A DNA stretch of 37,696 nucleotides from Corallococcus terminator. GTDB lineage: Bacteria > Myxococcota > Myxococcia > Myxococcales > Myxococcaceae. The translations under genes were made by a program, and so were the position numbers. The stretch's first letter is position 1. Each line of letters begins with the position of its first letter. The stretch is from assembly GCF_003611635.1 (NCBI RefSeq), contig NZ_RAVZ01000051.1, positions 1 through 37,696 of the forward strand. The letters run 5' to 3'. This document shows, one piece after another, positions 20,184 to 32,224 of the stretch. The notes below the pieces were generated by a model that had not been told where the DNA came from, did no database searches, and saw only the letters and a program-made list of their open reading frames with translations.

Positions 20184-21489
20184 GCGGCTTGCGGCGCGCG
20201 GTCGCCTTCTTCGCCAGGGCCTTCTTCGGAGATTTCCGGTCGGCCGCGAGGGCTGGGAAGGTGAGCGTGAACACCGCGCCTCCCTGCTTCCGGTTGGCGC
20301 CGGTGAGCGTGCCGCCCGCGCGCGTCACCACGCCGTGGGCCATGGACAGGCCCAGGCCGGTGCCGTCGTTGCCCTTGGTGGTGAAGAAGGACTGGAAGAG
20401 GTGGGGCAGGTGCTCCGGCGCGATGCCGGTGCCCTCGTCCTCCACCGTGAGCCGCACCGTCGCGCCCTTGTGGACGGCCCGCACGTGGATGGTGCCGCCC
20501 CGGGACATGGCGTCGCGGGCGTTGATGAGCAGGTTGATGAGGACGTACCTCAGCTCCATCGCCGAACCCGCGACGAGCGGCAGTCGCGGAGGCATCACCA
20601 CGTTCAGGCGCAGGAAGTGGCCCCGCGGCAGGGGGCGATGCTCGATGCCGCCCCGGGCGATGTCCACCGCGTCCCGGACCACCTCGGTGAGCTGGACGCG
20701 CTCCCGGAAGGCCCTGGCCTTCTGGCGCGTGAAGTCCTGGAGCCGGCTCACGCGCGCATCCGCGTCGGACACGATGCGCGCCAGGGCTTCCAGGTGCGGC
20801 TGGTGCTGGCCCGTGGGGGCCACGTCGTGCTGGAGCATCTCCAGCCGCATCCGCATGGCGTTGAGCGTGTTGCGCAGGTCGTGCGCCATGCCCGCCGACA
20901 GCTCCCCCAGGGCGCGGATCTGCGCGCGCTCCAACATGGTGGCGCGCGCGCAGAGCAACTCCTCCTCGTCGCGCGCCTGCTCGGTGATGTCGCGCGCGAG
21001 CACCAGCACGTGACCTTCCAGGGGCCCGGCGACGCGCTCCGAGCGCACCTCCAGCACCTGGGGATGCGCTTCGTGGGTCTGGCGGTAGCGCGCGACGCGC
21101 GACCCCACCGACTCCAGAGCCAGCGCCGCATCCCTCTCCACCTGGGCCATCTCCCGCAGTGAAGCATGCGTCGGCGCGGCACCCGTCCGCACGCCGAGGC
21201 CGGGCTCGGCCATGCGTTGCCAGGGACCCCGGTTCCTGTTGAGCGCATGCCAGCGCGAGTTGGCCAGCACCACGCTGCCCGCGCTCAGCACCGCCAGCGC
21301 GCTGTCGCTCGTCTCCAGTGCCCAACTGGACAGCCGGAAGGTGCTGACGTGCAGCGTGGTGCGCTCCTCCAGCCTGCGCACCAACTGTTCGTGCTTGGCC
21401 AGCAGCTCGCGGTATTTTCGCAGCAGGCCCGGCTTCTCCTCTGGCGCGGGGACGGGGTGGGGCGGCGGAGGCGAGCGCCGCGCGCTCAT
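20179..21489 (-). CDS. Soluble PAS-like histidine kinase coupled to cheR
   Basis: A 436-residue histidine kinase without membrane segments. Residues 1-45 are Pro-rich then helical; about 50-170 is a PAS-like sensor ending in VLARDITEQARDEEE; the DHp helix has H203 in SAGMAHDLRNTLN; the HATPase domain (about 290-415) has N-box VLINLLINARDAM, G1 DEGTGIAP and G2 GTGLGLSMAHGV. It ends in a Lys/Arg-rich tail. Its class resembles NtrB-type kinases that feed soluble receivers. The ATG overlaps the cheR stop in an ATGA, so the two genes are translationally coupled. Likely partners are the receivers at 18376 or 23607. A kinase taking the place of CheA in this block is inference. Confidence 0.92.
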   Translation of the reverse strand: MSARRSPPPPHPVPAPEEKPGLLRKYRELLAKHEQLVRRLEERTTLHVSTFRLSSWALETSDSALAVLSAGSVVLANSRWHALNRNRGPWQRMAEPGLGVRTGAAPTHASLREMAQVERDAALALESVGSRVARYRQTHEAHPQVLEVRSERVAGPLEGHVLVLARDITEQARDEEELLCARATMLERAQIRALGELSAGMAHDLRNTLNAMRMRLEMLQHDVAPTGQHQPHLEALARIVSDADARVSRLQDFTRQKARAFRERVQLTEVVRDAVDIARGGIEHRPLPRGHFLRLNVVMPPRLPLVAGSAMELRYVLINLLINARDAMSRGGTIHVRAVHKGATVRLTVEDEGTGIAPEHLPHLFQSFFTTKGNDGTGLGLSMAHGVVTRAGGTLTGANRKQGGAVFTLTFPALAADRKSPKKALAKKATARRKPR

Positions 21490-23420
21490 GCCTTCCTCTT
21501 CGTCTTGAGGAGGCGGTTCTCCTCCAGCAGCGCAGCCGCCCGGGTGGTGTCCTCGAAGAGCACGATGGAGCCCAGCACGTTCGTCTCCGTGACGAGCGGG
21601 GTCGCGACCAGGGTGGCGCTGCCCGTGCCCCCGTGCGGAAGCTGGTAGGGCACCCCTTCCAGGCGCAGCGAGCGGTTCTCCTGGAGGTGTCGGCGCAGCT
21701 TCTGGATGAGGGGGCGCTTGAGGGCGGGCACGTGCAGGGACCACAGCTTCTGGCCCACCGCCTCGCGCTCGGTGACGCCCAGGAGGCGTTCGGCGGCCAG
21801 GTTCCAGGTGGTGATGCGGCCGTCGCCCTCCAGCACCAGCACCGCGGCGGAGAGCGTGCGGATGATGGTGCGCTGGGTGAAGGCCAGCGAATCCATCTCC
21901 AGCGTGCGGTGCGCCAGCTCGCGGTTGGTGGCGTCCAGCTCCGCGTTGGCGGACTGGAGCTCCTCGTTCGTCGTCTCCAGCTCCTCGTTGGTGGACTGGA
22001 GCTCCTCGTTCGTCGTCTGCAGCTCCTCGTTGGCGGACTGGAGCTCCTCGTTCGTCGTCTCCAGTTCCTCGTTGGAGGCCCGCAGCTCCTCGTTGGAGGA
22101 CTGCATCCGCAGGTTGATGGACTGCAATTCCTCCTGCACCGACTGCAGCGCCTGCTCCACCCCCCGGGCAGTGGTCACGTCGTGGGTGACGTACAGCAGG
22201 CCCTGTCGCGCGCCCGTGCGGTCGCGCAGGGGGACCACCTGCGTGCGCACGGTGATGGAGTCGCCGCCAGCGTTCTCCAGCAGGCCGTCGGAGAACTCGC
22301 GCTCGGTGCGGCCGTTGCGCACCCGTCCGGTCTGTTCGATGAGCAGGTCGCCGATGAGCCCGCTCAGACCCAGCGCGGACAGCTTCTTGCCCAGCACGTC
22401 GCCTTCGTTGCGGTTCCACATCCGCGCCGCCGCGCGGTTCCAGAACGTCACCGTGCCGTCGTTGTCGGTGGTGATGGTGGGGCAGGGCTGGGAGTCCAGC
22501 AGGTCGCGCAGGAGGGAGCGCTCGGGTTCGATGGCCGCCGCGATGAGGCGGGGCGGAAGGGTGGGCTCCGGTGGCAGCCGGTCTTGCGTCGTGGTGACCA
22601 CCTCCACGTGGGCGTCCTTGCGGTAGATGCGCCGCGCCAGGTCCACGGGCCGGAAGATGCGGGCCGCGAAGGGGATGAGCTCCGAGCGGCCCAGCATCAG
22701 CAGGCCGTTGCGCCGGAGGGCGAACTGGAAGCGCGCCAGCACCCGCTTCTGCAGATCCGAGTCCAGGTAGATGAAGACGTTGCGGCACAGGATGAGGTCG
22801 ATGCGCGACACGGGCGCGTCCGACACCAGGTTGTTCACCCCGAACACCACCGCGCGGCGGATCTCCTTGCGCACCGTGAAGGTGTTGCCGGTGCGCACGA
22901 ACCAGCGCGCCAGCCGCTCCTTGGAGACGTTCTCCAACTGCGCCGGCGTGTAGATGCCCCGGCGGGCCCCGGCGATGGCGTCCTCGTCCACGTCCGTGCC
23001 GAACACCTTCAGCTCCGGGCCGGGGTGGCCCGGCCCCAGGGCCTCCGCCGCGGCGATGGCGAGCGAATACGCCTCCTCGCCGGTGGCGCAGCCCGCGCTC
23101 CAGATGCGCAGCTCCTTGTCCGGGCGCTGGCGGATGAGCTCCGCCAGGGACTCCTCCAGCGTCTGCCACACCTCGCGGTCGCGAAAGAAGGTGGTCAGCT
23201 TGATGAGCATGGAGGAGACGAGCGTGCTGACCTCCGCGGGCTCCCGCTCCAGCAGCGCCAGGTAGGCGGCGCGGGTGCGGCAGCGCGTGGCCTGCATCCG
23301 CCGCTCGATGCGGCGCTGCAACGTGGCGCGCTTGTAGTTGCGGAAGTCGAAGTTACGGACCTGCCTCACCTTCTCCAGGATGGCTTCGAGTTCACTGTCG
23401 CGAGGGGGGCGGGTCGCCAT
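21486..23420 (-). CDS. cheR: CheR methyltransferase with PAS domains and coiled coil
   Basis: A 644-residue fusion. Residues about 5-270 are a CheR S-adenosylmethionine-dependent glutamate methyltransferase: N-terminal helical part (RNYKRATLQRRIERRM), SAM site WSAGCATGEEAYSLAI, FGTDVDEDAI and the CRNVFIYLD segment. A PAS domain (about 315-430) follows, ending in YVTHDVTTARG; then a coiled coil built on nine NEEL-type heptads; then a second PAS-like domain (about 515-630). The fusion places methyl transfer under sensory control. In many bacteria the same parts are joined with CheB and a kinase in one polypeptide; here they are separate genes. There is no chemoreceptor gene in the window, so the methylation target is unknown. 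It starts with ATG at 23420 and is divergent from the NarL-type gene. Confidence 0.93.
   Translation of the reverse strand: MATRPPRDSELEAILEKVRQVRNFDFRNYKRATLQRRIERRMQATRCRTRAAYLALLEREPAEVSTLVSSMLIKLTTFFRDREVWQTLEESLAELIRQRPDKELRIWSAGCATGEEAYSLAIAAAEALGPGHPGPELKVFGTDVDEDAIAGARRGIYTPAQLENVSKERLARWFVRTGNTFTVRKEIRRAVVFGVNNLVSDAPVSRIDLILCRNVFIYLDSDLQKRVLARFQFALRRNGLLMLGRSELIPFAARIFRPVDLARRIYRKDAHVEVVTTTQDRLPPEPTLPPRLIAAAIEPERSLLRDLLDSQPCPTITTDNDGTVTFWNRAAARMWNRNEGDVLGKKLSALGLSGLIGDLLIEQTGRVRNGRTEREFSDGLLENAGGDSITVRTQVVPLRDRTGARQGLLYVTHDVTTARGVEQALQSVQEELQSINLRMQSSNEELRASNEELETTNEELQSANEELQTTNEELQSTNEELETTNEELQSANAELDATNRELAHRTLEMDSLAFTQRTIIRTLSAAVLVLEGDGRITTWNLAAERLLGVTEREAVGQKLWSLHVPALKRPLIQKLRRHLQENRSLRLEGVPYQLPHGGTGSATLVATPLVTETNVLGSIVLFEDTTRAAALLEENRLLKTKRKA
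21912..22100 (-). repeat. 21-bp tandem repeat encoding heptad coiled coil
   Basis: Nine consecutive 21-bp units inside cheR encode heptads of the form xxNEELx (the last two read NAEL and NREL). The DNA units are also nearly identical, for example CTCCTCGTT recurs in seven of the nine. Period and frame match a coiled-coil signalling helix between two PAS domains. Near-identical DNA makes copy number changes by slippage plausible. Confidence 0.9.
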
Positions 23421-24387: not shown

Positions 24388-25188
24388 TCAGGGCGTCGGC
24401 GCGGGGTCCCCTTCCAGTTCGTACCGGGGCGCTCCCAGGTGCTGGAGGAACCATTCCCCGGCGAGCTCGGCCACCCGTTCCAGCTCCGCGTCCTCCTGGA
24501 AGTGGTGGGTCGCGCCCGGGATGATCTCCATGTGCTTGGGCGCCTGGAGGTCGGCGTAGGCCCGGCGGTTGATGTCCAGGCCCAGCGCGTCCGCGCCGCC
24601 CACGAGCAGCAGCGTGGGAGCCCGCACCTTGGGGAGCACCGCGCCGGCCAGGTCGGGCCGGCCGCCCCGGGAGACGACGGCGTCCACCAGCTCCGGACGG
24701 TTGGCCGCGGCGGACAGCGCCGCGCCCGCGCCGGTGTGCGAGCCGAAGTAGCCCACGCGCAGGCCGGTGGTGTGGGGTTCGCGTTGCAGCCACCGCGCCG
24801 CGCCCGCCATGCGCAGGCCCAGCAGGCCCATGTTGAAGCGAAGCTGCCGCGTGCGGCGCTCTTCCATCTCCTCGCTGGTGAGCAGGTCCAACAGCAAGGT
24901 GCCCAGTCCCATCGCCTGGAACAGGCGAGAGGTCTGCGCGAGCCGGGGACTCTGGCGGCTGCTGTCGCTGCCTCGCGCCAGCACCACCACGCCCCGCGCG
25001 CCCGCGGGCACCGCCAACCGCCCTCGGAGGAGGACGGCGTCATCCACCGGCACCATCACCTCGCGCTCCAGGTGCGTGCGCGCCGCCGGTGTTCCTCCAC
25101 GCGTCGCGGGGGCTTCCCGCGGCTGCTCCGACGACCCGTGGTCCTGCCGTGCTGCCCTCAACCCCGTTCGTGACCGGGGACCTGTCAT
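24388..25188 (-). CDS. Dienelactone-hydrolase-like protein with altered nucleophile
   Basis: A 266-residue alpha/beta-hydrolase-fold protein of the dienelactone hydrolase type. An unstructured N-terminus (about 1-42) precedes the fold: MVPVDDAVLLRGRLAVP, GVVVLARGSDSSRQSP (oxyanion region), the LGTLLLDLLT strand, then the nucleophile elbow. The elbow reads YFGSHTGAGAAL: the centre of the G-x-N-x-G turn is H151 where family members have Ser or Cys, and the nearest Ser (S150) is one position early. The acid D200 in LLVGGADALG and base H228/H229 in IPGATHHFQ are in place. It may be inactive as a hydrolase or use a shifted residue. The ATG at 25188 has GGAGGAG five bases upstream. It is separated from the operon upstream by a terminator. 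Confidence 0.85.
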   Translation of the reverse strand: MTGPRSRTGLRAARQDHGSSEQPREAPATRGGTPAARTHLEREVMVPVDDAVLLRGRLAVPAGARGVVVLARGSDSSRQSPRLAQTSRLFQAMGLGTLLLDLLTSEEMEERRTRQLRFNMGLLGLRMAGAARWLQREPHTTGLRVGYFGSHTGAGAALSAAANRPELVDAVVSRGGRPDLAGAVLPKVRAPTLLLVGGADALGLDINRRAYADLQAPKHMEIIPGATHHFQEDAELERVAELAGEWFLQHLGAPRYELEGDPAPTP

Positions 25189-25323
25189 ACAGGCTCCTCC
25201 CGTCTGCGTTTGGCTGACCTGCGACCGAGGGTAAGTTGAGCACCCCCCCAGCCGCTGTGACCTGTCGGAAGGTCCGGGCTGTCCGGCGTCCGACACCGCA
25301 TTGTAGGGAGGGAGGAGGCCCGA

Positions 25324-25350
25324 GGGAAACGACCCACCCTGGAGGGTGGG
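25324..25350 (-). terminator. Terminator of the tryptophan-derived operon
   Basis: On the minus strand CCCACCC (25344-25350) pairs with GGGTGGG (25333-25339) around a TCCA loop and is followed by TCGTTTCCC (25324-25332). It lies 15 bp past the O-methyltransferase stop and separates that operon from the hydrolase gene. Confidence 0.65.
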
Positions 25351-25364
25351 ACCCCTGTCGGATT

Positions 25365-26438
25365 TCAGGGCTTCGTGGCCACCACGAGCTCGAAGGGGCC
25401 GGGCAGCACGTGCGCGTCCCGGAAGCCCGCGGTGGTGAGCGCGTCCAGGTAGAACTCCACCTCGCGCAGCCGGCTGGAGCACGCGTCCACGCCGATGAGG
25501 AAGTAGGACCAGAAGAACTGCGCCGCCAGTCGCTCCGGCGTGCGGAACTCCTCGCAGATGAGCACCCGTCCGCCCGAAGGCAGCGCGGCGAAGGCGGCCT
25601 GCATCAACTGGCGCGCCACCTCCGCGGGCCAGTCGTGCAGCACGCGCACGAACGACAGCGCGTCGTAGCCCTGGGGAAGCGCCTCGCGCAGGAAGTCCCC
25701 GCCCACGAAGCCCAGCCGCTTTGGCGTCAGGCCCGCACGCTCGCGCGTGCGGGTGACGAGCGCCTCGGTGGCAGGCAGGTTGTAGACGTCCACGTCCAGC
25801 TTCGCGTGTTCGCGCAGCAGGTGCTCCGCGAGCGTCCCGTCCCCGCCGCCCACGTCGAGCAGCCGGGCCCCGGAAGGCCACAGCGCGCCCGCGTGCGCGC
25901 GGAACGTCTCCAGGATGGGGCCCAGGCCCGCGGCCATGCTCGCCTCGAAGCCCTCCACCTGTTCGGGCGTGCGCGGAGGCCAGTCGAAGGAGGCGGCGGA
26001 CATGGAGTGCTGGCCGCGCAGCACCTCTGGCAGCCGGCCATGCAGCGCCTTCCAGTCGTACTTCTCCCGGTCGCGCTCCAGCGCGCGCGGCCCCAGCACC
26101 GCCTCCGCCGCCGCGCGCAGGCCCTGCACGCCCCGGTAGCGCGTGTCCGCCAGCGCGTCGGAGGGCTGCTCGCGCTGCACGAGCCCCAGGCTCTCCAGGC
26201 AGTCGAGGAACTTGTACAGCCGCTGCGGCACGAAGCCGTGGCGCGTGGACAACTCCCCCAGCGTCACCGGCCCGGGCTCCAGCGCGTCCAGCAGTCCCAG
26301 CCCGAGCGCCGTCTCCACCACGTCCAGCGCGCGAGCGCCGTTGAACAGCAGGTGCAGCAGGGCGCGCGGTGATGCGGCCTCACGCGGAGGCGATGCGGGT
26401 GCCGGAGCGACGGGCGGAGCAGACAGTGCCGCGCTCAT
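25365..26438 (-). CDS. SAM-dependent O-methyltransferase, family 2 type
   Basis: A 357-residue methyltransferase of the plant-COMT/acetylserotonin O-methyltransferase type. An Ala/Pro-rich start (1-25) is followed by a winged-helix dimerisation domain (about 28-110; LGLLDALEPGPVTLGEL, RLYKFLDCLESLGLV) and a Rossmann SAM domain (about 170-357). SAM motif I is LLDVGGGDGTLAEHLL (193-208). H268 in VRVLHDWP aligns with the catalytic base of family members. Such enzymes methylate phenolic hydroxyls, sometimes amines, of small aromatics. The start codon overlaps the preceding gene in an ATGA, so it is the last gene of the TDO-like/kynureninase-like operon. The likely acceptor is the aromatic product of those two enzymes, such as an anthranilate-type or quinoline-type compound; this is inference. 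Confidence 0.9.
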   Translation of the reverse strand: MSAALSAPPVAPAPASPPREAASPRALLHLLFNGARALDVVETALGLGLLDALEPGPVTLGELSTRHGFVPQRLYKFLDCLESLGLVQREQPSDALADTRYRGVQGLRAAAEAVLGPRALERDREKYDWKALHGRLPEVLRGQHSMSAASFDWPPRTPEQVEGFEASMAAGLGPILETFRAHAGALWPSGARLLDVGGGDGTLAEHLLREHAKLDVDVYNLPATEALVTRTRERAGLTPKRLGFVGGDFLREALPQGYDALSFVRVLHDWPAEVARQLMQAAFAALPSGGRVLICEEFRTPERLAAQFFWSYFLIGVDACSSRLREVEFYLDALTTAGFRDAHVLPGPFELVVATKP

Positions 26439-27580
26439 GCGGCCTCCTTGCGCTGCTCTTCGATGAGCGCGTCCATGAAGCCATCCACCTCTTCCGGCGT
26501 GTTGTAGAAGTGCGGCGCCGCGCGCAGGAAGCCCCGGTGGCTGCAGATGAAGCCGCGCGCCACCAGCCGCTGCATCACGCTCACGTCGCCAGGGAAGCTC
26601 AGCGCCACGATGCCGCCGCGCTGGTGCGGCTCGCGCGGTGTCACCACGCGCAGGCCCGCTTCATCCGCGCGCGCCATCAGCCGCGACGTGAGCTTCAGCG
26701 AATGCTCGCGCACCGCCGTGATGCCCACGCCCTTCAAGAGGTCCAGCCCCGGCCGCGACAGCAGCACCATCAGCGGCGCGGGCGTGCCGCCCATCATCCG
26801 CCGCGCATCCGGTGCCCAGGCCTCCGCCGACTGGAAGGCCAGCGGCGACGCCCCGGCAAGCCACCCGGTGTCCGCGGGCCGCAGCGTGGGCAGCAGCTCC
26901 GGACGCACGTACATGAACGCGTACTCGGAGCCGCCCAGCCACTTGTGCGCGCCGCCCATGAGGAAGTCCACGTCCAGCGCGCGCACGTCCACCGGCACCG
27001 TGCCCACCGTCTGGTACGCATCCGTGGCGATGAGCGCCCCGGCCGCGTGCGCCGCCTTCGCCACGCGCGCGACATCCAGCAGCGCGCCGGTGGAGAACGC
27101 GGCGTGCGACACGCAGACCAGCCGCGTGCGCTCGTCGATGGCCGCCTCCAGCGCCGCCTCATCCACGCGGCCGTCGCGCGACGGCACCACCACCAGCTCC
27201 GCCCCATAGCGCGCGAAGCCCTTCCAGATGAAGGGCACCGTGGGGAACTCCAGGTCGGTGACGATGACGCGGCGGCGCTCGCCGCTGAAGTCCAGGCAGG
27301 TGCCCAGGCGCGACAGGTGCGCGCTCAGGTTCACGTCCAACGCCACGGACGCGGGCGGAGCGCCGATGAGGCCCGCCACCGCATCCGCGTAGCCCTGCAT
27401 CTGGGAAAGCCATCCATCCCAGACGGCGTCGCGCCACGTGCGCATCGTGGTCCAGTACTGCGCGAGCACTCCCTCCACGGCCCGGGGCATCGCCCCGGTG
27501 GAGTTGCTGTTGAGGTACGTGCAGGTCTCAAGCAGGGGATACTCCGCGCGCAGGGCCCCCGGGAGTACCCCCTCGATCAC
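26435..27580 (-). CDS. Kynureninase-like PLP enzyme (class V aminotransferase fold)
   Basis: A 381-residue PLP-dependent enzyme. Fold-type I marks: TYLNSNSTGAMP at the N-terminus, VIVTDLEFPTVPF near 106-118, CVSHAAFSTGALLD near 156-169, D187 in IATDAYQTVG binding the pyridine nitrogen and the Schiff-base Lys K213 in MGGAHKWLGG. The DAYQTVGTVPVDV and TGWLAGASPLAF segments are close to kynureninases, which split kynurenine into anthranilate and alanine; a cysteine-desulfurase or epimerase relative is the alternative. The location directly after a TDO-superfamily gene supports kynureninase-type activity. The GTG at 27580 overlaps the upstream stop as GTGA, with GAGGAG six bases before it. No formamidase gene for the intermediate step is in the window. 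Confidence 0.87.
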   Translation of the reverse strand: MIEGVLPGALRAEYPLLETCTYLNSNSTGAMPRAVEGVLAQYWTTMRTWRDAVWDGWLSQMQGYADAVAGLIGAPPASVALDVNLSAHLSRLGTCLDFSGERRRVIVTDLEFPTVPFIWKGFARYGAELVVVPSRDGRVDEAALEAAIDERTRLVCVSHAAFSTGALLDVARVAKAAHAAGALIATDAYQTVGTVPVDVRALDVDFLMGGAHKWLGGSEYAFMYVRPELLPTLRPADTGWLAGASPLAFQSAEAWAPDARRMMGGTPAPLMVLLSRPGLDLLKGVGITAVREHSLKLTSRLMARADEAGLRVVTPREPHQRGGIVALSFPGDVSVMQRLVARGFICSHRGFLRAAPHFYNTPEEVDGFMDALIEEQRKEAA

Positions 27581-28632
27581 GTCTGGCTCCTCAGCTCGTG
27601 GGGATGGGGATACGCCGCCGGCGCGCCGTGGGCGTGCATCGCGGTCGGTGCGGCGTGGGCGTGCATCGCGGCCGGCGCGGCATGGGCGTGCATCGCGGCC
27701 GGCGCGGCGTGGGCGTGCATCGCGGCCGCCGCGGCGTGGGCGTGCATCGCGGCCGCCGCGTCGTGGGCGTGCATCGCGGTCGGCATGGTGTGGCCGTGCA
27801 TCATCGGGCACCCGCCCCCGCGAGGCGCCGCGTGCGCGTCCGTCCCTCGCGACGCACCCGTCGCGTAGCCGCCCTCGCGCTTCCAGCCGTTGGTCATCTC
27901 CACGCGCACGTCCCACAGCGCGCGGAACAGCGGCAGGGTCATGCGCCCGGCCAGCACCTGCGTGGGCAGGCCATCCAGCGCCTTCACCGAACGGTCCACG
28001 CCGATGGTGCGGCGCACCAACTGGAAGTGCGCGAACAGCCAGCCCTGGAAGGCCTCATCCATGCTGACCAGGTTCTCACAGACGTGCTTCAGATCCTCGT
28101 GCCCCCCGGCCGTGTAGATCTGCATCAGCGTCACACCCCGGCGCTCCAGCATGCGCTCCAGGGAGGACTCCAGTCCCGTGGCCGCCAGCCGGAACGTGTT
28201 GTAGCCCGGCGACTCCTGCCCGCTGCCGTTGCCCAGGCTGCGGCGGATGACCTGGTACGCCTCCGGCGTCATCGTCTCCAGGATGGCCATCTCGGAGCTG
28301 ATGCACTGGAGGATGCGCTGCACCCGCGCCAGCCGAGCAACCACGGCCCACAGGGCGTCCCGGTCCAGCTCCGCCACCACTTCCACGATCTCCCGCGACG
28401 CCAGCTTCAGGTACAGCTCCTGGGACTGGTGGACGATCTGGAACATCAGCTCGTCGTGCGACACGCGCTCCGCTTCCGCGGACTGCAGGCCCAGCAGCGT
28501 CCCCGTGTGCAGGTAACGCTCGTAGTCCAGCTCTCCCTTGCCCACCCACTTCTTCAGCATCGGGTTGAAGAGCGGCTGAGTCAGCTCGTGCTTCAGTTTT
28601 TCCGCGTGGCTGTAATCAGTGGACATGAACAT
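27577..28632 (-). CDS. Divergent tryptophan 2,3-dioxygenase-superfamily enzyme, His-rich tail
   Basis: A 351-residue protein. Residues 1-250 are a helical heme-enzyme core of the tryptophan 2,3-dioxygenase family: YERYLHTGTLLGLQ (37-50), distal pocket F64 and H68 in FQIVHQSQELYLK, substrate-carboxylate pair Y126/R130 in ETMTPEAYQVIR, LGNGSGQES (133-141) and the proximal heme ligand H202 in AHFQLVRRTIG. The loop that normally reads GTGGSSG after this helix is missing; GVDRSVKALDGLP stands there, so the usual Thr binding the substrate amino group is absent. Residues 250-351 form an extra low-complexity tail with seven MHxH-type 9-residue repeats. Canonical enzymes convert tryptophan to N-formylkynurenine; relatives such as MarE do other oxidations. 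The ATG at 28632 follows GGAGG; 28626 is an alternative. First gene of a coupled operon. Confidence 0.9.
   Translation of the reverse strand: MFMSTDYSHAEKLKHELTQPLFNPMLKKWVGKGELDYERYLHTGTLLGLQSAEAERVSHDELMFQIVHQSQELYLKLASREIVEVVAELDRDALWAVVARLARVQRILQCISSEMAILETMTPEAYQVIRRSLGNGSGQESPGYNTFRLAATGLESSLERMLERRGVTLMQIYTAGGHEDLKHVCENLVSMDEAFQGWLFAHFQLVRRTIGVDRSVKALDGLPTQVLAGRMTLPLFRALWDVRVEMTNGWKREGGYATGASRGTDAHAAPRGGGCPMMHGHTMPTAMHAHDAAAAMHAHAAAAAMHAHAAPAAMHAHAAPAAMHAHAAPTAMHAHGAPAAYPHPHELRSQT
27613..27801 (-). repeat. 27-bp tandem repeat encoding MHAHxAxxA units
   Basis: Seven exact-period 27-bp units, with GTGCAT (plus strand) at 27634, 27661, 27688, 27715, 27742, 27769 and 27796, encode residues 278-340 of the TDO-like protein. 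In order the units are MHGHTMPTA, MHAHDAAAA, MHAHAAAAA, MHAHAAPAA twice, MHAHAAPTA and MHAHGAPAA. Each gives a Met and two His spaced HxH. Near-identical DNA suggests recent expansion by slippage. Confidence 0.95.
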
Positions 28633-28725
28633 AGCTCCCTCCGGGGTGCAGGAACGTATGAGTGCTGGGTGGAATGCGCCCCGGTTCGGGGGGAACAGTG
28701 AGCGCGGAAAACTCTAGAAGCGACT

Positions 28726-28753
28726 ACCTTACAGGGCTTTCTGTAGAGTTCAA
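28726..28753 (-). promoter_or_regulatory. Candidate promoter and overlapping dyad for TDO-like operon
   Basis: On the minus strand TTGAAC (28748-28753) and TAAGGT (28726-28731) are 16 bases apart, a weak sigma-70-like pair that would give a leader of about 85 bases. An inverted repeat AACTCTA (28710-28716) / TAGAGTT (28744-28750) brackets it, with GAAG and CTTTC extending the arms, so a repressor could cover the promoter. Local A/T content is raised. Confidence 0.35.
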
Positions 28754-28845
28754 GATGTCAGCCCTACTTGGTTATCACTTTCCGAGATTTTTCTCGCACC
28801 CGGAGGCAGGGTGGCCCGAGGGGTCGGGCGCACCCAGGGTACTGC

Positions 28846-29265
28846 TCACCCCTCAACAGGTGAGGGATTCCGGCCCGGCGTAGCGGGCCGGGGCTTCAGA
28901 CGCATCGCGTTGAGCTTCTGGGCCAGGTCAGCGCCCTGCACGCTCTTGGAGATGTAGCCGTCCGCGCCGGAGGCGATGGCCAGCGAGCGCAGCTTCGCCT
29001 CATCCGACGCGGAGTAGAGGATGAAGCGGGTGCCGGGGGGCGCGTACTGGCGCGCCAGCCCCACGACCTTGTCCCCCTTGAGGGCGGGGAAGTTCACGTC
29101 GATGAGCACGAAGTCCGGCTCGGACGCGCGCACGATGTTGGACACACCCAACGCGGACGTATGGGTCTGCACTTCGAACCCGTACGCGCTCAGCGAGCGC
29201 TGTACGAGGTCGAGCAGGTCCGGGTCGTCGTCCACCACAAGGACGCGCGGTTTTGGTTCAGCCAT
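28846..29265 (-). CDS. Single-domain response regulator after hybrid kinase
   Basis: A 139-residue stand-alone receiver. The acidic pocket is VVDDDPD, the phospho-acceptor D56 lies in LIDVNFPALKGDKV, the switch Ser in LYSASDEAKLR and the conserved Lys in GYISKS. The last 20 residues are Pro/Arg/Lys-rich and unstructured. It closely resembles the receiver at 18376-18780. The ATG at 29265 lies inside the end of the hybrid kinase gene (8-bp overlap), with GGGAG just upstream, so translation is coupled and the kinase is the obvious phospho-donor. It is the last gene of the cytochrome/FIST/kinase/receiver run. It has no DNA-binding domain, so the output is by protein contact. Confidence 0.92.
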   Translation of the reverse strand: MAEPKPRVLVVDDDPDLLDLVQRSLSAYGFEVQTHTSALGVSNIVRASEPDFVLIDVNFPALKGDKVVGLARQYAPPGTRFILYSASDEAKLRSLAIASGADGYISKSVQGADLAQKLNAMRLKPRPATPGRNPSPVEG

Positions 29266-32224
29266 GGCTTCTCCCTAGGTACTGACGAATCGTCTCGATC
29301 AACTGATCGCGATCCAGGGGCTTGGTGAGGTAGGCCGTGCAACCGGCCGCCTGCGCCTTGTCCTGGTATTCGCGCCCCGCGTGGGCGGTGACGGCGATGA
29401 CGGGCACGTTCTGCCCATCCGGCAACGCCCGGAGCCTGCGGGTGACTTCCCAGCCGTCGAGTCTCGGCAGGGACAAATCCATGAGGATGAGGTCCGGCAC
29501 GTCGGCGCGCGCGCGCTCCAACCCCTGCTCGCCGTCCTCCGCCTCGATGAGGTCATACAGCCCGCCCAGGTAGCGGCGGACGATGTCGCGGTTCTGCTCG
29601 CTGTCCTCCACGTACAGCACGCGGGGCAGCTTGCCGGCGCTCGCGGCGCGCTGGGACATGAGCAGGCCCTTGGCCTGGGAGATGACGTCCTCCAGGGCCG
29701 TGCCGCCCTTGCGCACGAAGCCGGCGAAGCCGTCGCGCAGGAGCGTCTCTTCTTCCGGGGTGAGCGTCTTGCCGGTGAGCACCACCACCGGCACTGACAG
29801 CTTCTCCGCGCGCAGCCGGCGCAGCACTTCGAAGCCGTCCAGGTTCGGCATCATCAGGTCTAGCACCACCAGGGACGGCGGCGACACGCGCGCCTTGAGC
29901 AGCGCGTCCTCGCCGTTGCGCGCCTCGTTGGTGGAGAAGCCCGCGCGGCGCAGGTTGCGGCTGACCAGCTCGCGCGTGGCCGCGTCGTCGTCCACCACCA
30001 GCACGTCGCCCGTGGCGGAGGTGGCGCCCGCGGAGGCGAGGCTCTTCTGCACCACCTCCACCAACCGCTCCGGCTCCACCGGCTTCACCAGGTACTCACA
30101 CGCGCCCAGGCTGAAGCCGCGCGCGCGCTGCTCCTCCACCGACACGAGGATGACCGGGATGGCGGCGAGGCTCGGCTCGCTCTTGAGCTGGCTCAACACC
30201 GACCAGCCGTCCATCCGGGGCAGGTGGATGTCCAGCAGGATGGCCTGTGGCTTGAGCTCGCGCGCCAGCTTCAGCGCGGCGATGCCGTCATCCGCCGTCA
30301 CGACCTTGAAGCCCGCGGGCTCGAGCTGGCCGGTGACGAGCTGCTGGATGAGCGGATCATCATCCACCACCAGCACCGTGCTGCCCGGCCGCGCCATGGG
30401 CGCGAGCTTCTGCGCCACGTCCTGGATGGGGACCAGCCGCTCCGTCGCATGCGGGCTGTTGGCGCCCACCGTGGTGGCCAGCACGTCCGGCAGCCGCACG
30501 GTGAAGGTGGAGCCCCGGCCCAGCGTGCTCGTCACGTCCACGGTGCCGCCCAGCACCCGCGTCAGCTCGCGCACGATGGCGAGCCCCAGCCCCGTGCCGC
30601 CCACCTTGCGCGTGGTGGAGCCGTCCACCTGGCGGAACTTCTCGAAGATGAAGGGAAGCTGGTCGGAGGGGATGCCCACGCCGGTGTCCTCCACCGTCAT
30701 CAGCATCTCACCGGAGCCCGCGGGCACCACCGTGAGGGCGACCTCGCCCGTGTCGGTGAACTTGGCCGCGTTGCTCAAGAGGTTGAGCATGATCTGCCGC
30801 AGCTTCAGCGCGTCCGTGCGCACCTCGGCCGCCTCCGCGTCCACGTGCACGGTGAGGGCGACGTCCTTGCCCTTCAGGTACTCCTTCACCGTGGCCATGC
30901 ACTCGTCGGCCAGCTCCTGCACGTCCACCGGTTCGGTGACGACCTCCACGCGGCCCGCTTCAATCTTGGACAGGTCCAGGATGTCGTTGATGAGCGCCAG
31001 CAGCGTCTTGGCGTTGGACTTCACCACGTTGAGGTCGCGCCGGCCGTGCGGCGTCAGGCGGTTGCCCTCCTCGCGCATCAGCAGGTCGCAGTAGCCGATG
31101 ATGCCGTTGAGCGGGGTGCGGATCTCATGGCTGAAGTTCGCCAGGAACTCGCTCTTGAGCCGCACGGCGCCTTCGGCCTCGCGCGCGCGCTCCTCCTCGT
31201 TGCGCTTGGCGACGGAGAGCTCCTGGGCCAGCCGGTCCAGGTCCTCGTTCTGCTGACGGATGATCTCCATCTGCAGCGCGCGCTGCTGGTAGCTCGCCAG
31301 GGAGCGGGCGGACACCGCGCGTGTCTTCTTGATCTCCTCCAGGCTGGCGGCCAACTGGAGGTTGGCGGCCTCCAGCTCCTCCTTGGAGGCGCGCAGCATG
31401 GCCTCGTTCTGCTTGCGCTCGGTGATGTCGTCGGTGACGCCCATCACGAAGCGCGCGATGCCGTGGTCGTCCACCAGCGGAATCTTGCGCGTGGCGAAGA
31501 TGCGGTCCTCGCCGTCGGCGCGGGCCACCTCCTCGAACGTCTTCATCTTCCGGGTCTCGAGGATCTCCGTGTCGATGGCGACGAACGAGTCCGCCTGGTC
31601 ATGCGGGAAGTAGTCGTGGTCCAGCTTCCCCAGCAGCCATTCCTTGGTGACCTTGAAGGCGTCCGCGAACGTCTTGTTGGCCACCACCAGCCGGCGCGTC
31701 TGGGCGTCCTTCACGAACAGCACGAAGGGCAGCGCGTCGATGATGTTGCTCAGCAGGTAGTTGGTCCGCTTGAGCTCCACGCCCGTCGCCTGGTGCTGGG
31801 CGCGCTCGGCGTGCAGGCGCAGCTCGCGCGCGACGATGAAGGGCAGGTGGCCGTAGCGGTCCTCGGTGACGTAGTCGAGCGCCCCGAGCCGCATGGCGGC
31901 ATCCAGCGTGTCCGGGTTCCAGGCGGGAGAGCTCACCACGAACGCGAGCGACAGCCCGCGCTGCTGCCACGCCGCGTGGACGGCGTCCCAGGACAGCCCC
32001 GGCAGCTCCGAGCCCAGGAGCACCAGCGCGTAGGGCCGCGCCAGCGCCTTCTCCAGGGCGTCCTGCGTGCACGCCTGCTCCAGCGTGAGCATGGAGAGGA
32101 TGTCCTCGCGCTCCAGTGCATCGCGCATCGCGCGCGTTTCGCGCTCGCTGCCCACCAGGAGCAGCGAAAGGGTGTACCCCAGCGGAGCTTCCGCGAGCGC
32201 CACATCGAACGGTTGGTTGGCCAT
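29258..32224 (-). CDS. Hybrid histidine kinase with three C-terminal receivers
   Basis: A 988-residue soluble hybrid kinase. Order: receiver-like N-terminal domain (about 18-140) in which the acceptor strand reads ALVLLGSELPG with no Asp, so it is a pseudo-receiver; PAS (about 154-280; VTDDITERKQNE at the end); coiled coil (about 280-350); HisKA with H366 in ANFSHEIRTPLNG; HATPase (about 475-595) with LLSNAAKFTD, DTGVGIPS and GGTGLGLAIV; then three full receivers (about 617-735, 742-860, 870-988) with acceptor Asp in LLDIHLPRMDG, VLDLMMPNLDG and LMDLSLPRLDG. This supports a multi-step phosphorelay ending in the overlapping stand-alone receiver. It starts 4 bp after the FIST gene stop. FIST proteins are known sensory partners of kinases, so ligand input probably comes from that neighbour. 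Confidence 0.94.
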   Translation of the reverse strand: MANQPFDVALAEAPLGYTLSLLLVGSERETRAMRDALEREDILSMLTLEQACTQDALEKALARPYALVLLGSELPGLSWDAVHAAWQQRGLSLAFVVSSPAWNPDTLDAAMRLGALDYVTEDRYGHLPFIVARELRLHAERAQHQATGVELKRTNYLLSNIIDALPFVLFVKDAQTRRLVVANKTFADAFKVTKEWLLGKLDHDYFPHDQADSFVAIDTEILETRKMKTFEEVARADGEDRIFATRKIPLVDDHGIARFVMGVTDDITERKQNEAMLRASKEELEAANLQLAASLEEIKKTRAVSARSLASYQQRALQMEIIRQQNEDLDRLAQELSVAKRNEEERAREAEGAVRLKSEFLANFSHEIRTPLNGIIGYCDLLMREEGNRLTPHGRRDLNVVKSNAKTLLALINDILDLSKIEAGRVEVVTEPVDVQELADECMATVKEYLKGKDVALTVHVDAEAAEVRTDALKLRQIMLNLLSNAAKFTDTGEVALTVVPAGSGEMLMTVEDTGVGIPSDQLPFIFEKFRQVDGSTTRKVGGTGLGLAIVRELTRVLGGTVDVTSTLGRGSTFTVRLPDVLATTVGANSPHATERLVPIQDVAQKLAPMARPGSTVLVVDDDPLIQQLVTGQLEPAGFKVVTADDGIAALKLARELKPQAILLDIHLPRMDGWSVLSQLKSEPSLAAIPVILVSVEEQRARGFSLGACEYLVKPVEPERLVEVVQKSLASAGATSATGDVLVVDDDAATRELVSRNLRRAGFSTNEARNGEDALLKARVSPPSLVVLDLMMPNLDGFEVLRRLRAEKLSVPVVVLTGKTLTPEEETLLRDGFAGFVRKGGTALEDVISQAKGLLMSQRAASAGKLPRVLYVEDSEQNRDIVRRYLGGLYDLIEAEDGEQGLERARADVPDLILMDLSLPRLDGWEVTRRLRALPDGQNVPVIAVTAHAGREYQDKAQAAGCTAYLTKPLDRDQLIETIRQYLGRSHG

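Follow-up and report, generated by a model that had tools for sequence, protein, structure and literature searches.

Three overlapping genes in the soil-dwelling predator Corallococcus terminator (assembly GCF_003611635.1, contig NZ_RAVZ01000051.1, positions 1 to 37,696, the 37,696-nucleotide stretch hereafter called the window) raise the question of what a myxobacterium makes when it couples a relative of tryptophan dioxygenase (TDO) to a kynureninase-like pyridoxal 5'-phosphate (PLP) enzyme and an S-adenosylmethionine (SAM)-dependent methyltransferase. An earlier inspection of the letters of the window (the sequence-only reading) had proposed a compact operon that turns tryptophan into an anthranilate-type product and methylates it. 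The coupled, conserved trio was correctly seen, and it is broader than one window could reveal; the observation as a whole is partly confirmed and its interpretation partly supported. With somewhat better than even confidence, we favour a specialised small-molecule cassette in which an oxygenase and an O-methyltransferase form the core and act on tryptophan or a derivative, with the PLP enzyme adding an accessory step. The genes, in order of transcription, are as follows:

27577-28632, minus strand: TDO-like heme oxygenase, 351 residues (core approximately residues 1-250, then a His-rich tail; PF03301 71.7 bits)
26435-27580, minus strand: class-V PLP enzyme, kynureninase-like, 381 residues, GTG start (Aminotran_5 122.8 bits, KYNU_C 45.8 bits)
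25365-26438, minus strand: SAM-dependent methyltransferase of the Methyltransf_2 family, probably O-methylating, 357 residues (PF00891 66 bits)

The first two genes share a 4-nt GTGA overlap (27577-27580) and the last two a 4-nt ATGA overlap (26435-26438), as the sequence-only reading had stated, and the identities are backed by Pfam, the cut-offs of which are exceeded by all three proteins (Trp_dioxygenase; Aminotran_5 and KYNU_C; Methyltransf_2, 66 versus 22.3 bits). All three miss the corresponding NCBIfam equivalog cut-offs, that is, TIGR03036 for TDO (111.6 versus 390.7, a cut-off of which the canonical genes of the tested hosts reach 387 at most over the segments reported), TIGR01814 for kynureninase (99.5 versus 246.4) and BchU, the best methyltransferase model (91.1 versus 276.1).

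The three genes are kept together in both Myxococcota and Actinomycetota. Among 16 genomes of the same genus, 15 (the window's own included) match the TDO-like gene strongly, all with both partner genes, the exception (G007) having weak TDO-like matches only; the closest named relative genome is that of Corallococcus praedator. Strong matches occur in 4 of the 19 other genomes of the family, two of which keep the trio together (G030 and G032), one of which has the methyltransferase gene approximately 5.4 kb distant from the others (G029) and one of which is missing the PLP gene (G026); of 24 genomes of the same order, one (G039) holds the trio. A search of a wider species collection confirmed 435 relatives of the TDO-like gene, and the best 80, on which the genus lists and locus counts below rest, were kept; these loci (L062-L141) partly overlap the genomes above, and the two sets are not summed. 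Presence and absence were counted by tblastn, as simple scripted gene calls missed genes in low-GC loci. Among the 36 relatives with a TDO-like identity of at least 50%, 23 have full trios, 12 have the TDO-like and methyltransferase genes only and one is cut by a contig end. Full trios were found in Corallococcus, Citreicoccus, Hyalangium, Sorangium and Nannocystis, and in ten actinobacterial loci (Nocardia, Kribbella, Micromonospora, Streptosporangium, Microlunatus, Jiangella and Streptomyces); the two-gene version belongs to loci of the Myxococcus/Pyxidicoccus/Archangium type.

All 35 loci that can be evaluated thus have the methyltransferase gene, and 12 lack the PLP gene. In 11 of the 12 genomes whose cassette is without the latter, there is no close copy elsewhere, the top hit reaching just 29-33% identity, and in Archangium the best match elsewhere is 43% identical. 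The 4-nt overlaps recur at 17 of 25 junctions between TDO and PLP genes, 22 of 24 between PLP and methyltransferase genes and 8 of 12 between TDO and methyltransferase genes, the window included. Across 24 trios, the pairwise distances computed for one protein track those of the others (correlations 0.965, 0.907 and 0.924), values that shared host ancestry inflates. In the more distant loci (37-43% identity, 44 of the best 80), the methyltransferase gene was found in none and a class-V PLP gene in 18 within the stretch retrieved, several of these contigs being short.

Canonical tryptophan catabolism is encoded elsewhere in the same genome. A canonical TDO gene lies at G000:C162, and another contig (G000:C60, L061:6842-13923) carries a canonical kynureninase (TIGR01814 448 bits) and a KMO gene (L061:12532-13923) beside genes that, from their sequences, we take to be HAAO, ACMSD, a RidA-type deaminase and an aldehyde dehydrogenase, an apparent catabolic set from kynurenine to 2-aminomuconate. 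Because the genome has this separate canonical TDO and kynureninase-KMO-HAAO-ACMSD operon, the catabolic pathway is not what the trio encodes. The claim that the genes form a compact unit of their own, apart from tryptophan catabolism, is therefore supported, given that the trio recurs in several genera and in another phylum and that the canonical genes are separate; the accompanying claim that neither a formamidase nor a 3-monooxygenase is encoded is true for the operon, but the genome does have KMO on another contig, and no PF04199 formamidase was found in it. A further TDO-family gene is present at another site in 14 of the 15 trio-type hosts tested (11 with a further TDO match of at least 219 bits, 3 with another TDO-family gene at 93-99 bits), the cassette gene being the only TDO match in Microlunatus. 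An alpha/beta-hydrolase-like gene downstream of the methyltransferase gene (24388-25056), kept in several Myxococcaceae, was considered as a formamidase and set aside, as the nucleophile position, placed by its sequence motif, is His or Tyr rather than Ser in the window (His) and in 12 of 16 homologues where readable.

The TDO-like protein retains the fold and the pocket of tryptophan dioxygenases. In an AlphaFold2 model of the core (predicted local distance difference test score (pLDDT) 89.7), the closest fold is MarE (Z 23.9, root-mean-square deviation 2.3 over 233 residues), followed by Xanthomonas TDO (XcTDO; Z 20.9-21.1, which places the predicted core in the TDO fold), and Foldseek repeats this order. 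Profile-alignment mapping finds equivalents of XcTDO Y24, Y27, F51, H55, R117, L120 and H240 in 49 of 49 relatives and of Y113 in 48 (Y113 and R117 both fall before the SSG motif); in the protein's own numbering, H202, H68, Y37, Y40, F64 and R130 are present in all 49 and Y126 in 48. Both heme-site histidines (axial and distal) and the indole/carboxylate pocket are therefore retained, and because these pocket residues are conserved, there is good support for indole amino acids as the predicted substrate class. Two features depart from the canonical enzyme: approximately 50 residues between the two conserved halves of TDO are missing in the alignment to XcTDO, and the GTGGS loop is replaced, with V216 at the position of T254 and Thr in only 2 of 49 relatives. 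According to a study of MarE, the Thr of this loop binds the amino group of the substrate in human TDO, MarE has SLGGR there and its looser loop is proposed to contribute to halting at one oxygen (PMC11904535).

For the methyltransferase, an AlphaFold2 model (pLDDT 90.0) has BchU, RedM and SibL as its nearest folds, all at Z 24-27 (RedM 26.3, SibL 24.2; ASMT follows at 21.8), and therefore the fold does not name a substrate. Nor does the best sequence match, PDB 22ow, because it is named merely 'Methyltransferase'; SibL matches with 79 bits. H268, D269, E296 and E297 are invariant in 27 of 27 sequences, and we presume that H268-D269 corresponds to the His-Asp pair of ASMT, an equation made by way of the shared HDW motif. 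One account describes this pair as catalytic in ASMT and replaced by Val-Ile in SibL, a C-methyltransferase acting on 3-hydroxykynurenine (PMC4426599). C-methylation of the SibL type is disfavoured by the invariant pair, which is non-polar in SibL, and the enzyme is probably O-methylating, judging from these residues.

The closest solved relative of the PLP enzyme is the kynureninase of P. fluorescens (1qz9, 185.5 bits), the next being a cysteine desulfurase (117.6 bits), the catalytic Cys loop of which (SufS) is missing here, with the Cys aligned to Gly in a profile alignment to 5b7s. K213, D187, R353 and W240 are present in 25 of 25 sequences, K213 and R353 corresponding to Lys227 and Arg375 of kynureninase. 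An alpha-amino acid is the likely substrate. At the position of kynureninase Tyr226 stands H212, with His in 17 of 25 sequences and Tyr solely in the canonical control.

Taken together, these observations can be assembled into a sequence of steps in which the TDO-like heme enzyme would bind L-tryptophan or a close derivative and insert oxygen, with a fair chance of halting at one oxygen as in MarE; the methyltransferase would then O-methylate the oxygenated product, using SAM; and the PLP enzyme, where present, would act as a hydrolase or lyase, its target being the side chain of the amino acid. The oxygenase and methyltransferase are taken as the core because the methyltransferase gene accompanies every evaluable locus and the PLP gene does not, and we infer that the latter is accessory. 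Monooxygenation rather than formation of N-formylkynurenine may be suggested because Val stands at the T254 position, MarE likewise is without the GTGGS loop and MarE is the top fold match, and O-methylation because the catalytic pair of ASMT is matched by H268-D269 throughout. Several points weigh against this picture. Over aligned residues, the TDO-like protein is 31-33% identical to Xanthomonas TDO versus 23% to MarE, and the SLGGR loop of MarE is absent, its region reading SVKALDG (in an alignment for which one sequence with a stop was shortened at its end), and because of these two facts genuine dioxygenase activity is also possible. In addition, the Methyltransf_2 family includes enzymes that methylate N, C or S as well as O, and a kept His-Asp pair names no substrate.

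Other routes were weighed against this one. If the TDO-like enzyme formed N-formylkynurenine, an unlinked activity deformylated it and the PLP enzyme cleaved kynurenine to anthranilate, an O- or N-methyl anthranilate could result. The retained tryptophan pocket fits such a route, as do the proximity of the PLP enzyme to kynureninase, the universal equivalents of Lys227, Arg375 and Trp, and a KYNU_C score above its cut-off; however, the kynureninase equivalog cut-off is failed, Tyr226 has given way to His, the PLP gene is gone from 12 of 36 loci, the genome has no PF04199 formamidase and anthranilate offers no phenolic OH to a His-Asp O-methyltransferase. Anthranilate formation followed by methylation is thus possible, yet we consider it unlikely; of the proposal that the trio makes and methylates an anthranilate-type product, the methylation half gains from the O-methyltransferase-type pair, whereas anthranilate itself is not established, the oxygenase perhaps being a monooxygenase. 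The missing OH would be supplied if the PLP enzyme instead transaminated kynurenine, with ring closure and O-methylation of a 4-hydroxyquinoline, a route with a precedent in quinolobactin. Class-V PLP enzymes include transaminases, and general transaminases could stand in where the gene has been lost; however, searches of solved structures place the enzyme nearest kynureninase and cysteine desulfurases, and we give this kynurenate-type route little credence.

Slightly less credible still is a route to a 4-methyl-3-hydroxyanthranilate-type product, as in sibiromycin and actinomycin, in which the TDO-like enzyme, KMO acting in trans and a SibL-like C-methylation of 3-hydroxykynurenine would precede the PLP step. 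SibL shares the fold family of the trio methyltransferase and, in the account cited above, acts on 3-hydroxykynurenine (PMC4426599), and KMO is encoded in the genome; however, that gene lies on a separate contig from the trio, BchU and RedM fit the fold no worse than SibL does, and the invariant His-Asp pair again differs from the non-polar residues of SibL. The least probable of these alternatives, in our estimate, is redundant tryptophan catabolism joined to an unrelated, co-transcribed methyltransferase: conservation of the pocket and of the PLP lysine would suit it, but the same genome has separate catabolic genes, and the methyltransferase gene is a constant companion whose junctions overlap in two phyla.

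One part of the oxygenase evolves differently from the rest:

27580-27882, minus strand: C-terminal tail of the TDO-like protein, with a GGGCPM motif, 9-residue MHAH-type repeats and an ELRSQT end

In the window, this tail comprises 101 residues, 17 of them His, with GGGCPM first and ELRSQT last, and contains a tandem repeat (27613-27802, period 27 bp, 7.0 copies) encoding the nine-residue units. Tail length varies from 32 to 360 residues in Myxococcaceae, where the Cys-Pro motif is present in 21 of 21 loci and where long tails, those of Corallococcus and Citreicoccus, are rich in His; outside the family, the motif was found in 1 of 16 loci and tails are mostly short. ELR occurs near the C terminus in all 9 Corallococcus sequences, and therefore the reading frame of the tail is maintained. 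A general heme-tail pattern was not upheld, as a DNA-pattern search for the Cys-Pro motif hit three places in the genome, the other two being an oxidoreductase-like open reading frame and an unidentified one. That the Cys-Pro/His tail binds heme or metal would be a guess from its composition, and a hypervariable tail of this kind on a heme enzyme is a separate oddity open to testing.

At the two ends of the operon, the following features were considered:

28633-28845, minus strand: intergenic stretch upstream of the TDO-like gene, possible promoter, with an inverted repeat (28730-28745) and a block kept in Corallococcus; no sigma-70-type site found
25300-25364, minus strand: hairpin downstream of the methyltransferase gene, weak terminator candidate (z -0.68; no terminator-like site)

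A candidate operator-promoter and a terminator had been proposed here, and both claims are weak. The inverted repeat TACAG-N6-CTGTA does exist at 28730-28745 and is rarer than expected by chance; however, 3 of 8 aligned Corallococcus upstream regions lack its left arm, and despite its rarity we set it aside as operator evidence; a scan of 25150-29300 found no promoter-like site. The block CTGTAAGGTAGTCGCTTCTAGAG is kept in all eight of these regions and not in other genera. The terminator received no support, as 46 of 200 shuffled sequences fold as well as the hairpin and the same scan found no terminator-like site of the T-run type. Upstream, on the same strand, lie genes for a response regulator (28846-29265) and a hybrid histidine kinase (29258-32224).

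Some further observations concern the surroundings of the cassette and its relatives. The stretch between the PLP and methyltransferase genes of G029 (L050:10904-16001) contains a gene for a flavin oxidoreductase-like protein as well as apparent ABC transporter genes. A flavin amine-oxidoreductase-like gene adjoins the trio in 5 of the 10 actinobacterial loci (L084, L086, L093, L089 and L092); Nocardia has it downstream, Microlunatus and Jiangella upstream. One locus (L072) has Myxococcus-type sequence and gene order under the record title Comamonas sp. KCTC 72670, a label that is probably wrong. The distant TDO-like clade (L098-L141, approximately 245 residues) spans Shewanella, Endozoicomonas, cyanobacteria, Acidobacteria and Alphaproteobacteria and provides the sole TDO-family gene in 7 of 7 tested host genomes. 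Near a distant TDO-like gene, L054:10796-13060 encodes a 754-residue FAD_binding_3 and Oxidored_FMN protein, which we presume to resemble 2-aminobenzoyl-CoA monooxygenase/reductase, and L057:9915-12182 is a gene of similar size and start; these neighbours are suggestive at most of a tie between the distant relatives and anthraniloyl-CoA chemistry. Elsewhere in the window, a CheR/PAS-like gene (21486-23420) contains tandem repeats of 21, 42 and 84 bp (21924-22133) encoding an NEELQ-type repeat.

If the favoured reading is true, the cassette would make a methylated tryptophan derivative with three genes only, kept in two phyla of prolific metabolite makers, and would be a natural test of how a tryptophan dioxygenase fold is shifted towards monooxygenation by loss of the loop threonine. 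The cassette may escape mining tools because no nonribosomal peptide synthetase or polyketide synthase genes were noticed adjoining it in the loci read, and full-text literature searches found no description of this three-gene cassette, which is not proof that none exists. More tentatively, we envision that the cassette defines a branch new to the heme-dependent aromatic oxygenase (HDAO) superfamily, in which a tryptophan monooxygenase and an O-methyltransferase would yield a methoxylated tryptophan-derived metabolite common to predatory myxobacteria and actinomycetes, the oxygenase of Myxococcaceae having gained a fast-evolving tail, His-rich where long, whose Cys-Pro motif may bind heme or metal.

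Among known systems, MarE of maremycin biosynthesis, a 2-oxindole-forming monooxygenase in the HDAO/TDO superfamily, shares with the TDO-like protein the fold, the distal and axial histidines, the substrate Arg and the absence of the GTGGS-loop threonine, but is only approximately 23% identical and has the SLGGR loop, and in the cassette the oxygenase is paired with a class-V PLP enzyme and a methyltransferase. Canonical TDO (Xanthomonas and human) shares the fold and each pocket residue checked bar the loop threonine, and differs in its GTGGS loop, in the approximately 50 mid-protein residues missing here and in the C-terminal tail found in Myxococcaceae. Kynureninase (P. fluorescens 1qz9 and human) shares the PLP Lys, the Asp and the carboxylate Arg with its closest counterpart in the trio, which falls below the equivalog cut-off and has His for Tyr226. 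RedM, SibL and ASMT, Methyltransf_2 enzymes of tryptophan-derived pathways, have the same fold as the trio methyltransferase, which, unlike SibL, keeps the ASMT-like His-Asp pair. Finally, the kynurenine-derived clusters of sibiromycin and actinomycin, and presumably quinolobactin, which we take to unite a TDO with a PLP enzyme and a methyltransferase as the trio does, differ from a cassette that consists of three genes only, in an operon without KMO or a nonribosomal peptide synthetase, and whose proteins all diverge from the canonical ones.

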